A stretch of 64,000 nucleotides of DNA from Promethearchaeota archaeon (GTDB lineage Archaea; Asgardarchaeota; Lokiarchaeia; Sigyniarchaeales; SOKP01). The position numbers were made by a program, and so were the translations under genes. The DNA is taken from the NCBI GenBank assembly GCA_030603385.1, contig JAUVXW010000004.1, positions 62,001 to 126,000 of the forward strand, written 5' to 3'. How positions within the stretch are numbered: position 1 is the first letter of the stretch; each line of letters opens with the position of its first letter. The notes under the pieces were generated by a model, which ran no database searches, had not been told where the DNA came from, and was given only the letters and a program-made list of their open reading frames with translations. Shown here piece after piece: positions 44,131 through 64,000 of the stretch.

Positions 44131-45039
44131 TTAATCCCTTCCTAATTTAAAAGCTTCTAATGCTTTTTTAGCTATATTATCACCCCATTCTTGTACAAAA
44201 TGTCCTGCGTCTTTGATTTCCATCGGTTTGGGGCATCTTGGTATCATTCCTCTTAAAATCTCCATCATGGGTAGTCCAAGTACGGGATCTTGCATTCCGA
44301 CAGCCATAAAAGATTCTCCATTCCATTTATCTTGGAACCAATCACGAGCTCTTCTTGATATTTCAGCACCTGGAGCATCATAACTAGTTGGAACTAATTG
44401 AGGAAATCTTCTAACGCCTGCTTTATACTTAATATCAAGAAAAGGTGCATCATAAGCAACAATATCATCTTGAATTAAAATTGGTGTTGATCTTAGCATC
44501 AAGCTTCCAACATTCATATCAGGAGTTTGACTTACCCAATCTCGAAAGCCTCTAAATCCTTGAGAGATCTCAAAGTCTCCTGTCCCTAATATCGTGTTCA
44601 TTATTAGTAATTGTTTGAATTTAGTGGGGAATGTGAGAGGTAATGTAAGACCTAGAATTCCTCCCCAATCTTGACAGACAAGTGTTATATTATTTAAATC
44701 TAATTCGCTTATAAATTCGATTAGGGAATTCCTATGGAAATCAAAAGTATAAATAGCATCCTCAACAGGTTTATCAGATCTCCCAAATCCAAAATAATCA
44801 GGAGCCACAACTCGATAGCCTGCATTTAAAAAAATAGGTGCCATCTTACGGTATAGATATGCCCACGTTGGTTGCCCATGAAGGCACAAAAATACTTCAT
44901 TAGAACTTTTTGGACCTTCATCAATGTAATGCATTCTCAAATCTTCAAATCCTTTAAGATTATCAATGTAATGGGGTTTATAAGGGAAGTTAGGAAGATT
45001 CTTAAATCTTTCATCAGGTGTTCTTACAAAATCAATCAT
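44131..45039 (-). CDS. Haloalkane dehalogenase-like alpha/beta hydrolase
   Basis: 302 residues. HGQPTW (54-59) forms the oxyanion site, QDWGG has the nucleophile D124 with W125 (same numbering as the Xanthobacter enzyme), and DAGHFVQEWG near the C-terminus holds the catalytic histidine. A cap domain with tryptophans lies between. These enzymes hydrolyse carbon-halogen bonds. Epoxide hydrolases and other hydrolases share the fold, but D-W after the nucleophile and HGxPTW favour a dehalogenase. Single gene, divergent from the second AlaX gene. Confidence 0.8.
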   Translation of the reverse strand: MIDFVRTPDERFKNLPNFPYKPHYIDNLKGFEDLRMHYIDEGPKSSNEVFLCLHGQPTWAYLYRKMAPIFLNAGYRVVAPDYFGFGRSDKPVEDAIYTFDFHRNSLIEFISELDLNNITLVCQDWGGILGLTLPLTFPTKFKQLLIMNTILGTGDFEISQGFRGFRDWVSQTPDMNVGSLMLRSTPILIQDDIVAYDAPFLDIKYKAGVRRFPQLVPTSYDAPGAEISRRARDWFQDKWNGESFMAVGMQDPVLGLPMMEILRGMIPRCPKPMEIKDAGHFVQEWGDNIAKKALEAFKLGRD

Positions 45040-53641: not shown

Positions 53642-54784
53642 ATGGAATCTACAAAAAGTGAAGATTGTCTTATTTTTTATGCTTTAACTCCCGAAATTAC
53701 TAAATTACGCCAAGTATATAATATAATCGGGAATTTTATGCAGAACAAGCAATCTATTGATCCTTCTGATCGATTTAATCTGATTTGGTTTCAAGATGAT
53801 GGGCCAAATTATTTAGATAATTTTACATTTGACCCAGAATATATTTCAAAGACTTTAAAGTCATTAGGTAAAGTTATTACTAAAGCAAATATCGCTGGTG
53901 GCGTATTTATTGCGATAACATTTATCATTGAAGTATTCAAAAAGATTTCTGAAAAGTTCTTTCGGTTATTGATATTGGTTGACGATGGCGCATATGAAAT
54001 CCCTGATGAATATCTCCCAGCACTTGAAGAATTAATTAAAAAAGTCAAGGATATGCCTTTTTTTATCGATATTATCTTGATGGGAAGTCCCTATTCTAAT
54101 CAAGCTCAGAAATTATTGAAACTAGCAAATTTATCGAATGGAGAATTATATGGAATCAAAAATATAAAAGATCTAAGTCCAATCTTAACAGAGTTATCAG
54201 AAAAGAAGCGTGTTTCAGAACCTTCGTTTGTAAAACAAAAATTACGAATGATACTCCCTGATAACCAACCATTTTACATAAATTTGGCGGATGACACTAA
54301 AAACGTTAATAATATAGCAACATGTTCCATTTGTTTTCATAAAGATGATCAGGGTATAGTAAAATGTCCTTCTTGTGATACTTCTGCTCATGAAGTATGT
54401 TGGGCACAATGGTCAGAAACTTCCAATATTGGAATTCCTCATGTGTTTAGATGCCATAATTGTTTCAATATATTAAAGCTTGATAAAGACTATATACGGG
54501 ATGTTCGAGCAGGAAAGATACCAACTATTGCAGAATTAACTAAAATGAAAAAAAGGAATATTATTGAATATCTGCATGAAATTGAATCTAAACGCGAACC
54601 TAAAGTTGTTCATACTGAAGATCCAATGGCAGTTGAAATTCGAGGGATGGTTGAAGCAACAAAATCGCAACCTAAAGAAGAAATTAAAAGAAAAAAAGTA
54701 TCAGTACATATTTGCCCTAATTGTAGCAAAATTATGATGGGTGATAGGAAAAACTGTCCTTCTTGTGGATTTGTTATGTTTTAG
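53642..54784 (+). CDS. vWA-like domain plus RING-variant-like zinc finger and zinc ribbon
   Basis: 380 residues. Residues about 1-190 look like a von Willebrand A fold (IFYALTPEITKLRQVYNIIG, FRLLILVDDGAYEIPDEYLP, FIDIILMGSPYSNQAQK). A C4HC3 finger follows: CSIC-x10-CPSC-x4-H-x2-C-x17-CHNC with AHEVCWAQW, very close to RINGv/PHD spacing. A helical linker and a C-terminal ribbon (CPNCSKIMMGDRKNCPSCGF) end it. RINGv domains act as ubiquitin ligases in eukaryotes; vWA plus RING also occurs in TFIIH p44/Ssl1. No ubiquitin or E2 gene is adjacent. Confidence 0.65.
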   Translation: MESTKSEDCLIFYALTPEITKLRQVYNIIGNFMQNKQSIDPSDRFNLIWFQDDGPNYLDNFTFDPEYISKTLKSLGKVITKANIAGGVFIAITFIIEVFKKISEKFFRLLILVDDGAYEIPDEYLPALEELIKKVKDMPFFIDIILMGSPYSNQAQKLLKLANLSNGELYGIKNIKDLSPILTELSEKKRVSEPSFVKQKLRMILPDNQPFYINLADDTKNVNNIATCSICFHKDDQGIVKCPSCDTSAHEVCWAQWSETSNIGIPHVFRCHNCFNILKLDKDYIRDVRAGKIPTIAELTKMKKRNIIEYLHEIESKREPKVVHTEDPMAVEIRGMVEATKSQPKEEIKRKKVSVHICPNCSKIMMGDRKNCPSCGFVMF

Positions 54785-61568: not shown

Positions 61569-62855
61569 ATGAAAGATATAAGAAAAGAATTAAAAATTAC
61601 GAATGAGGCATTAAAAGCTGTAAATGATTTTCTCTTGGATGAAAAAAATCCATTAATAAATAAACTATTCGAAGTAATCGAAAAATACGGTGGAGTCGAA
61701 GAAATCAACAAAAAAGCTAAAGAAGAAAGTCAATTAGACAACCTATTAGATAAATTGAAACATAAAAAGCTAGATTATATCCAAGATATTGAATGGTTGA
61801 TTAAACAAAGAGAAAAAAATGCTTTTATTAGTATACCTGATTATAGAAAAAAAATTCTTGGAGATAAATTATCTGAGATTACATTTGATAAGGATTTTGC
61901 TGTCACATTAGAGCTTTCAGCATGTCAATATTTTCCATTTTTTATAGATATTGTAAAAGCTGCAATTGAAGATCAGAATTTAATGCCGAGTAGAATAATC
62001 CGCGTTAGAAAAATGAAAGAACAAGAAGAGGATGGCGATTTATTAGCTATGGCAGCTGCGATGCAAATTATAGGAGCGACTTATGTAGAAACATTAGATA
62101 CCAAGGGAACGGCTCCTGGCCCTGATGGATTACCGATAAATGTACATCTTGGTGGACCCGAAACCATAACAGGTTATTTTGGAGGAATTGGGCAACCTAA
62201 CGATCTTGCATTAAAGTGGATTGATGAATATCTTTATTATTATACTAATTATGGTATCAAGCAAGTTTTAAATGTTAATCCTGGAACCGTCCTTCTTGGA
62301 TACTTCATGCATAAACTTGGAATAAATAATGAATTCAAAATCTCAGTATATATGGGAAATGATAATCCCTACGCTTGTTTGTGGACTCTTTTAACAGCAA
62401 AATTATTTGCCAGAGAAGATGGAACAAGTTCGTTGATTGGTTTTAATCTTGCTAATTCCGTAAATAATGAAACGATTGAACTCTCTGCTTATATTAGAAA
62501 AGAATTTGATTTTGAAGATGTTGTTAGATTTGAACATCATGTAATTGAGACACAGAAAAGTATTGTACGCCAACCATATGATCGAAGGGACGAATTAGTG
62601 GAGGTTGCTACGAAAGTAAAAAATATCAGTGCTAAACATGAAGGTGGTGATGTAGAAATGGATAAAAACAGAGAATATCCTTCAGATATTTTAGATTATT
62701 TTAGAGATAAGCAAGAGATTATTGATTCGGGTCATTGGGAATTTATGCGTAGAAATCACCTTGATAGATATATTGCTGTAAATACTACAGCTAAAATATT
62801 AACTGAAAATGGCATTGATATTATTGCTGCCCAAAATCTTCATAAATATGAATAA
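61569..62855 (+). CDS. Unrecognised 428-residue protein upstream of the DapA-Fae fusion
   Basis: I do not recognise the family. Helical N-terminus (1-90), then an alpha/beta region that could be a TIM-like barrel: FAVTLELSACQYFPFFIDIV, LAMAAAMQIIGATYVETLDT, HLGGPETITGYFGGIGQPND and NPGTVLLGYFMHKLG. The C-terminal part has RFEHHVIETQKSIVRQPYDR and a final AKILTENGIDIIAAQNLHKY. No cofactor motif is certain; EHHVIET could bind metal. It ends 22 bases before the fusion gene, so the two are probably one transcript and one pathway. Confidence 0.6.
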   Translation: MKDIRKELKITNEALKAVNDFLLDEKNPLINKLFEVIEKYGGVEEINKKAKEESQLDNLLDKLKHKKLDYIQDIEWLIKQREKNAFISIPDYRKKILGDKLSEITFDKDFAVTLELSACQYFPFFIDIVKAAIEDQNLMPSRIIRVRKMKEQEEDGDLLAMAAAMQIIGATYVETLDTKGTAPGPDGLPINVHLGGPETITGYFGGIGQPNDLALKWIDEYLYYYTNYGIKQVLNVNPGTVLLGYFMHKLGINNEFKISVYMGNDNPYACLWTLLTAKLFAREDGTSSLIGFNLANSVNNETIELSAYIRKEFDFEDVVRFEHHVIETQKSIVRQPYDRRDELVEVATKVKNISAKHEGGDVEMDKNREYPSDILDYFRDKQEIIDSGHWEFMRRNHLDRYIAVNTTAKILTENGIDIIAAQNLHKYE

Positions 62856-62877: not shown

Positions 62878-64000
62878 ATGGGAAAATTTGATTTTCGACC
62901 TAAAGGTGTTATGCCTGCTATGGTAACGCCGTTTAATAAGGATGAATCTATAAATGAAGAGAATTTAAGAAATTTAGTAAATTTTCTTATCGAACAAGGT
63001 GTAACTGGTCTTGTTCCAGTTGGTACTACTGGAGAATTTGTTAATATGACATTCAAGGAGCGTTTAAAAGTTATTGAAATTGTTGTGGATGAAGTAAATG
63101 GCAGAGTTCCAGTGATTGCTGGGACTGGGGAAACAGGTACAAAATTAGTTGTTGATGCTACTAATGCTGCCACTAACATTGGTGCTGATGCAGTATTAAT
63201 AGTCACACCTTATTATTTAAAACCTAAAGCAAAAGGATTATATGATCATTATTATACTATTACGGAAAAAACAGATATTCCAATAGTTTTATACAACATC
63301 CCCCCTTGTACTGGAGTGGAATTGCCATGGACCGTTGTTGAAGATTTAGTTGATATTGAAAATATCGTAGCAATAAAAGATTCGAGTGGAGATTACAAAT
63401 ATTTTTCGGCATTATTAGAAAAAGTAAGTGATAAGATCTCAGTTTTGATTGGATGGGATGAAAATGTGTTGGGGGCCTTAGCTGGGGGTGCTGCAGGTTG
63501 TATATTGGGATCAGCTAATATTTTTCCTAAAATATGGATTGAAATATATGATCATGTGAAAAATAATCATTTAGAAGAAGCACAGGTTCTTCAAAAAAAA
63601 GTACAAAAGTTAGCAAGACTATTAATAAATTCTGGTGCATTAGGGGTAAAATCATGTTTAAATATGATGAAAATTCCAGTAGGGACTACACGTAAACCAC
63701 TTGTGCTAGGAGACGCACTCTCTTATGAGATTAAAGACGAGTTACGGGTTGAACTTGAAAAATTAGGTTTTATTAAAAAAACAGAAATCCAATTTGAATT
63801 TGGAGACAAGTCACTTATAAGTCGTTTTTATGCTGTCGGAATTACTCCTCAGAAAATCTCTGATTTCGACTTAAAAGTAGGGGAATCTCTAGTAGGGGAT
63901 CGTGCAGAACTTGCTCATATTGACCTTCTAATCGGTAAAAAAAATGGACCTGTTGGTAATGCCTATGCTCAAGCTTTAACTAATCCAGAAGAAGGACGTG
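62878..64000 (+). CDS. DapA-family aldolase fused to formaldehyde-activating enzyme (Fae), 3' end outside the window
   Basis: 374 residues are visible, with no stop. Residues 1-300 are a DHDPS/NAL-family barrel: VGTTGEF (48-54), Tyr139 in [12 protein letters not shown], Schiff-base Lys167 in AIKDSSGD. The Arg of true DHDPS (after YNVP) is Cys144 here, so lysine synthesis is unlikely. From residue 331, [40 protein letters not shown] is the start of Fae with its conserved His. Fae joins formaldehyde to tetrahydromethanopterin. An aldolase that releases formaldehyde would feed it directly. About 130 more residues are expected. Confidence 0.85.

Follow-up and report, generated by a model that had tools for sequence, protein, structure and literature searches.

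A single gene of this Promethearchaeota archaeon joins an aldolase of the DapA family to a formaldehyde-activating enzyme (Fae), and the fusion is real. The preliminary description of the window (the whole stretch of 64,000 nucleotides that was analysed, i.e. positions 62001-126000 of its contig, taken from an assembly of 3.89 Mb in 58 contigs) had placed both enzymes in one frame, which opens with an ATG at 62878 and is still open at the window end. Reading the assembly past that end bore this out. The frame continues uninterrupted, which rules out a stop or frameshift just after 64000, and it closes with a stop codon at contig position 126365 (window-equivalent 64365), giving a protein of 495 aa in which both domains are present in full. 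The completeness of the Fae domain beyond the window end settles the doubt over a truncated Fae. An assembly artefact can be dismissed as well, because the fusion recurs in 105 of 227 Asgard genomes and in independently assembled Bathyarchaeota/Bathyarchaeia copies; it is thus neither a chance nor an assembly join. The features of the gene and of its upstream neighbour are as follows.

61569..62855, + strand: orphan TIM-barrel protein of 428 aa, conserved partner of the fusion, 22 bp upstream of it
62878..64000 in the window, + strand: DapA-Fae fusion gene (open reading frame; full frame 62878-64365 in window-equivalent positions, 495 aa)
62899..63756, + strand: DHDPS/NAL-family class I pyruvate aldolase domain, residues 8-293 (Pfam PF00701, 264.2 bits, cut-off 22.1; solved DHDPS relatives)
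63022..63036, + strand: GTTGE motif, residues 49-53 (Thr51, Gly52 and Glu53 invariant in alignment A3)
63292..63294, + strand: Tyr139, position of the catalytic tyrosine (retained in 68/68 fusion copies)
63307..63309, + strand: Cys144, where DHDPS has arginine (aligned DHDPS structures, fusion copies, the genome's own DapA)
63376..63378, + strand: Lys167, position of the Schiff-base lysine (retained in 68/68 fusion copies)
63757..63876, + strand: linker, residues 294-333 (between the Pfam domains; model confidence low from residue 303)
63877..64000 in the window, ending at window-equivalent 64350, + strand: formaldehyde-activating enzyme domain, residues 334-491 (PF08714, TIGR03126)
63916..63918, + strand: His347, counterpart of the conserved Fae histidine (alignment with solved Fae 1Y5Y)

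Domains and active-site residues of the fusion

The Fae domain of the fusion scored 181.8 bits against PF08714 (cut-off 27) and 182.4 bits against NCBIfam TIGR03126 (cut-off 118). The histidine that His347 matches is presumably the catalytic one. A structure model of the whole protein (mean pLDDT 73) is confident for the aldolase domain only and poor beyond it. In the aldolase domain Lys167, Tyr139 and the GTTGE motif were found at the positions first assigned to them, and the Fwd branch that had been read from the same DNA is indeed encoded here: FwdC, FwdB and FwdD lie together with a FwdF-like ferredoxin at 49.8-52.8 kb. Elsewhere in the window, a gene at 44131-45039 (- strand) is over the cut-off of a haloalkane dehalogenase subfamily model, and a 380-aa ORF at 53642-54784 (+ strand), upstream of 2-oxoacid:ferredoxin oxidoreductase genes, has no NCBIfam match at E <= 1e-5.

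Conservation was scored over the 68 fusion copies of at least 440 aa, some genomes being counted through two collections. Lys167, Tyr139, Thr51 and Glu53 are retained in every one of them. The residue at position 144 is Cys in 48 copies, Leu in 12, Val in 8 and Arg in none, whereas the aligned DHDPS structures 2yxg and 3pud carry an arginine at the equivalent position. This arginine, Arg138 in E. coli, binds the carboxylate of aspartate semialdehyde. Of the initial claim that Cys144 replaces the DHDPS arginine, the loss of the arginine therefore stands, but cysteine is not the universal replacement. The Fae histidine is retained in 61 of the 68 copies. The seven copies that lack it are all first members of tandem pairs, and the second copy keeps the histidine each time; six of these pairs belong to family f8, which corresponds to the Thorarchaeia, and one to f12 (such family labels, including f20 for Heimdall, are not tree-based). 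The tandem DapA-Fae pairs are located at L108-L112 and L115 (f8) and at L098 (f12).

Distribution of the fusion and its genomic context

The search for the same fusion in related genomes, suggested at the outset, was positive for the Asgard archaea and for Bathyarchaeia. Among the 105 fusion-positive Asgard genomes, 97 have a match that extends into both domains (in G032 split across two contigs) and 8 were counted from partial matches (G004, G009, G125, G126, G127, G136, G158 and G190). In G004 and G009, both assembled as one contig, the frames are short, and a broken or misassembled gene is possible there. The systematic survey covered Asgard and Bathyarchaeia; elsewhere it covered the best 120 of 3973 protein matches and the best 80 of 566 loci. 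Within those 80 loci, the nearest genome-collection records were MAGs of Candidatus Lokiarchaeota/Lokiarchaeia, and homologues of the fusion with 55-58% identity were found in eight loci of Bathyarchaeota/Bathyarchaeia records. One Bathyarchaeia homologue that was scanned is over both the dapA and the Fae cut-offs. The best 120 of the 3973 protein-database matches share both domains at 83-93% identity; those that carry a name are mostly called 4-hydroxy-tetrahydrodipicolinate synthase. Two of these 120 entries (P0070 and P0076) are labelled as derived from bacterial MAGs.

A tree of the Fae domain was built from 73 non-redundant sequences, 48 from fusions and 25 from frames with an N-terminal Fae (the Fae-Hps arrangement), after removal of 28 out of 101 domains as near-identical. 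All 48 fusion domains fall in one clade with support 100, apart from Fae-Hps. A single origin is the simplest reading of this tree, and the fusion thus likely arose once. Among the papers listed on Fae in Asgard fusions, on Fae and dihydrodipicolinate synthase, or on Fae and fused pyruvate aldolases, we found no report of it. The main text of a survey of archaeal fusions (PMC11237513), as available to us, mentions Fae/Hps and contains neither dihydrodipicolinate nor DapA, and the accessible part of an Asgard paper (PMC11291895) mentions Fae-HPS and not DapA.

A comparison of presence and absence over the 227 Asgard genomes revealed an inverse relation between the fusion and homoserine dehydrogenase. 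In total, the orphan partner was found in 126 genomes, homoserine dehydrogenase in 100, ketopantoate hydroxymethyltransferase (PanB) in 168 (3 under the cut-off) and DapB in 68. Fusion and dehydrogenase occur together in 20 genomes, the fusion only in 85, the dehydrogenase only in 80 and neither in 42 (odds ratio 0.12, p 1e-12, with shared ancestry ignored). Among the 126 partner-positive genomes the two are nearly complementary (both 18, fusion only 68, dehydrogenase only 32, neither 8). The extreme case is formed by the Thorarchaeia, where 44 of 47 genomes have the fusion and 2 of 47 the dehydrogenase. The complementarity is weak in the Loki family, in which the dehydrogenase is present in 15 of 42 fusion-positive versus 15 of 23 fusion-negative genomes (both 15, fusion only 27, dehydrogenase only 15, neither 8; p 0.04, shared ancestry again ignored).

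The downstream genes of threonine synthesis were considered as well. The genome under study has homoserine dehydrogenase and threonine synthase alongside the fusion, so that the fusion is no simple replacement here. In several Loki genomes without homoserine dehydrogenase the threonine-synthase matches are weak too, as would be seen if the pathway had been lost entirely. With E <= 1e-49 in place of the curated cut-off, ThrC was matched in 36 of the 47 Thorarchaeia genomes. ThrB is over its cut-off in 14 of 227 genomes, none of them fusion-positive, and is uninformative on homoserine use because it is under the cut-off also where homoserine dehydrogenase and threonine synthase adjoin (G057 and G134).

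The fusion was also compared with Mch, in a sample of 122 genomes drawn from the phylum. Mch was found in 80 of them, 53 of which carry the fusion, and the fusion was absent from all 20 Mch-negative genomes listed (of 42). The Thorarchaeia genomes listed have weak best Fae matches (E 7.5e-23 to 1.3e-35). Six Thorarchaeia loci were read, and in them both Fae matches fall in the tandem fusions. Judged from these sequences, the Thorarchaeia seem to have no Fae other than the fused one.

The orphan gene directly upstream is a recurrent companion of the fusion. It is present in 126 of the 227 Asgard genomes and in 86 of the 105 fusion genomes, and the best 80 of 566 loci also include copies from Bathyarchaeia records and two MAGs of Anaerolineae. 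The protein is well conserved (69% mean column identity across 49 sequences) and has no convincing relative in Pfam, NCBIfam or the PDB. Among the Pfam families listed, YagK_YfjJ_C matched 12 of the 49 members (best E 0.03) and Ribosomal_L30 matched 5 (best E 3e-4), for example; such scattered matches were taken as chance. Its structure model (pLDDT 88.8) consists of an N-terminal helical part and a TIM barrel; the top Foldseek matches are class II fructose-bisphosphate aldolases with a low TM-score, and a second aligner returned generic barrels. The family is large, as all 8000 scored candidates matched. A second orphan ORF (c17, 312-322 aa) adjoins the fusion in L097-L101, which belong to families f11, f12, f21 and f25; a profile comparison with the partner showed a weak similarity, with a probability of 39% over 115 columns, both profiles being of low diversity.

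The genomic context of the partner is of two main kinds. Among the best 80 of 566 partner loci, 37 have the fusion, which adjoins codirectionally in 29, adjoins divergently in 5 (the Bathyarchaeia arrangement) and lies nearby in 3. In 22 other loci an aminotransferase gene comes after the partner, and 15 of these 22 also have homoserine dehydrogenase and aldehyde:ferredoxin oxidoreductase (AOR); in a sixteenth locus, L194, homoserine dehydrogenase and AOR precede the partner. The partner family thus changes neighbours between the DapA-Fae fusion on the one hand and homoserine dehydrogenase, aminotransferase and AOR on the other (e.g. L121, L158-L160, L177 and L192). A threonine-synthase-like gene lies near the partner in 7 of the 80 loci, five of them named Thorarchaeota. 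The flanking genes that were read around the present fusion copy include no aminotransferase gene. In G042, which has no Fae or Mch match, a stand-alone DHDPS-family gene (L121:5777-6820) is located 17 bases upstream of the partner.

Possible reactions of the fused enzyme

Homoserine and 4-hydroxy-2-oxobutanoate (HOB) are the compounds suggested by the gene context. For the retro-aldol split of HOB put forward in the preliminary description, this lends the substrate indirect support, from the ties of the partner gene to homoserine dehydrogenase, an aminotransferase and AOR and from the complementarity of fusion and dehydrogenase. We tentatively propose, as a reading that is quite possible if short of probable, that the aldolase domain interconverts pyruvate plus formaldehyde and HOB, and that Fae exchanges the formaldehyde as methylene-tetrahydromethanopterin (methylene-H4MPT). 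Going by the chemistry of the family, either pyruvate or HOB would be bound by Lys167 as a Schiff base, and Tyr139 would relay protons together with the threonine of the GTTGE motif. A pocket devoid of the arginine at position 144 for a second carboxylate would take formaldehyde rather than aspartate semialdehyde. The formaldehyde would be kept between the fused domains and swapped with H4MPT at the His347 site of Fae, which could hold the level of free formaldehyde low. Overall, the two domains would catalyse pyruvate + methylene-H4MPT <-> HOB + H4MPT, a reaction that could run as a hydroxymethylation of pyruvate with methylene-H4MPT. The complementarity with homoserine dehydrogenase fits the hydroxymethylation direction at least as well as the retro-aldol direction. 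As a single transamination separates HOB from homoserine, the homoserine pool would be linked through this enzyme to pyruvate and to the one-carbon branch. For the Thorarchaeia, in which homoserine dehydrogenase is nearly absent, we prefer the direction of HOB formation, and elsewhere a reversible role.

It has been described that promiscuous aldolases convert pyruvate and formaldehyde to HOB and that aminotransferases convert HOB to homoserine (PMC8879981 and PMC7918591, in the parts accessible to us). A bolder and rather doubtful extension of our proposal is a natural H4MPT-dependent route to homoserine that stands in for homoserine dehydrogenase in the Thorarchaeia and other archaea. In that route the fusion would hydroxymethylate pyruvate to HOB, an aminotransferase would convert HOB to homoserine, and the orphan TIM-barrel enzyme would carry out the next step. 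A replacement of homoserine dehydrogenase is most plausible in the Thorarchaeia, on the basis of co-occurrence. The C4 intermediate handled by the fusion is probably also the compound on which the partner works. A unifying idea, put forward as a conjecture from the alternating neighbours, is that the partner might work on a homoserine-like C4 compound that is supplied or drained by either route, i.e. by the fusion from pyruvate and a one-carbon unit, or by homoserine dehydrogenase together with AOR and an aminotransferase from the side of aspartate.

The alternatives differ in how much of this proposal they retain. The nearest one keeps a formaldehyde-handling aldolase and the proposed role of Fae, with another 2-oxo-4-hydroxy acid as the compound formed or split (e.g. 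one derived from 2-oxobutanoate), perhaps shared with the orphan neighbour. The variation at position 144 (Cys, Val and Leu) and the two unlike tandem copies of the Thorarchaeia suggest more than one substrate, and the neighbour is an orphan enzyme; however, the proton-relay residues are those of the pyruvate-using DHDPS and the gene context is homoserine-like, and we regard this alternative as conceivable but on the whole unlikely. Somewhat less likely still is the release of a larger aldehyde, as in the sugar-acid aldolases, with Fae as a safety or regulatory module instead of a catalytic partner. It would be in line with the matches of the domain to NAL, KDG aldolase and related sugar-acid models, although all of these are below their cut-offs, and with the stand-alone state of the solved Fae 1Y5Y, which implies that Fae needs no aldolase partner. 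A merely protective Fae is at odds with the retention of its histidine in most of the copies scored, with the presence of Mch in fusion-positive genomes wherever listed, and with the other Fae fusion of the genome, Fae-Hps, in which Fae is paired with a formaldehyde-using aldolase.

Two further explanations assign the fusion to a known pathway, and both are very improbable. The database names imply that the protein is a genuine dihydrodipicolinate synthase of the lysine pathway and Fae a passenger. Indeed, the aldolase domain passes the cut-off of the TIGR00674 dapA model (248.3 versus 206.15 bits), which counts against a non-lysine function, and DapB accompanies the fusion in 36 of the 105 genomes. 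Nevertheless, the DHDPS arginine is missing from all 68 copies, and the genome under study has a separate DapA next to DapB, in which the motif NVPSRTG retains the arginine where the fusion reads NIPPCTG. Moreover, a DapB match is lacking from 69 of the 105 fusion genomes, including every fusion-carrying genome of the Thorarchaeia; over the 227 Asgard genomes DapB_C matches were obtained in 68, and in none of the Thorarchaeia or f20. On these three grounds a DHDPS function was rejected. The other explanation is that the fusion replaces PanB, with H4MPT instead of tetrahydrofolate. The overall reaction would be of the same type, with a 2-oxo acid receiving a hydroxymethyl group from a pterin, and 25 of the 105 fusion genomes are without a PanB match. 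The other 80 do have one, among them the genome studied here and each of the 8 f20 genomes with the fusion, which led us to discard a replacement of PanB.

If the interconversion of pyruvate plus formaldehyde and HOB holds, the close archaeal kin of eukaryotes would process formaldehyde within a fused pyruvate aldolase. This would constitute a natural form of a chemistry that synthetic biologists have assembled from promiscuous enzymes, and would further connect one-carbon units on H4MPT with amino acids. It would also provide a first handle on the large orphan enzyme family, and a non-lysine function would correct the widespread database name dihydrodipicolinate synthase. The pattern in the Thorarchaeia makes their source of homoserine directly testable.

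Relation to known aldolases and Fae fusions

The fusion belongs to the same family as DapA (PF00701, TIGR00674) and shares with it the Schiff-base lysine, the tyrosine and the threonine. It differs in the absence of the arginine at the site of the aldehyde carboxylate and in the added Fae domain, and also in its setting, as DapB is missing from 69 of 105 fusion genomes and a genuine DapA is encoded elsewhere in this genome. The archaeal Fae-Hps (tetrahydromethanopterin hydro-lyase/3-hexulose-6-phosphate synthase; NF009833) likewise joins Fae to a barrel-type aldolase, and this genome's only other Fae match is part of an ordinary Fae-Hps protein (431 aa). In Fae-Hps, however, Fae occupies the N-terminus and is followed by an Hps of the OMPdecase family, whereas in the fusion it occupies the C-terminus, behind a class I aldolase of the DapA family; the OMPdecase-family domain (PF00215) has no match in the fusion and is present in the separate Fae-Hps gene. 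The Fae domains of the two arrangements fall in separate clades.

With regard to the reaction, the closest parallel is found in E. coli RhmA/YfaU and the synthetic homoserine cycle (PMC8879981 and PMC7918591, again as far as their accessible parts go), which share with our proposal the conversion of pyruvate and formaldehyde to HOB, followed by transamination. The homoserine route outlined above, if true, would be the natural counterpart of that engineered cycle. YfaU is a class II aldolase with a promiscuous HOB activity that was recruited into an engineered route, whereas the fusion has an aldolase of a class I family with a built-in domain for the transfer of formaldehyde to H4MPT, and is found in natural genomes.
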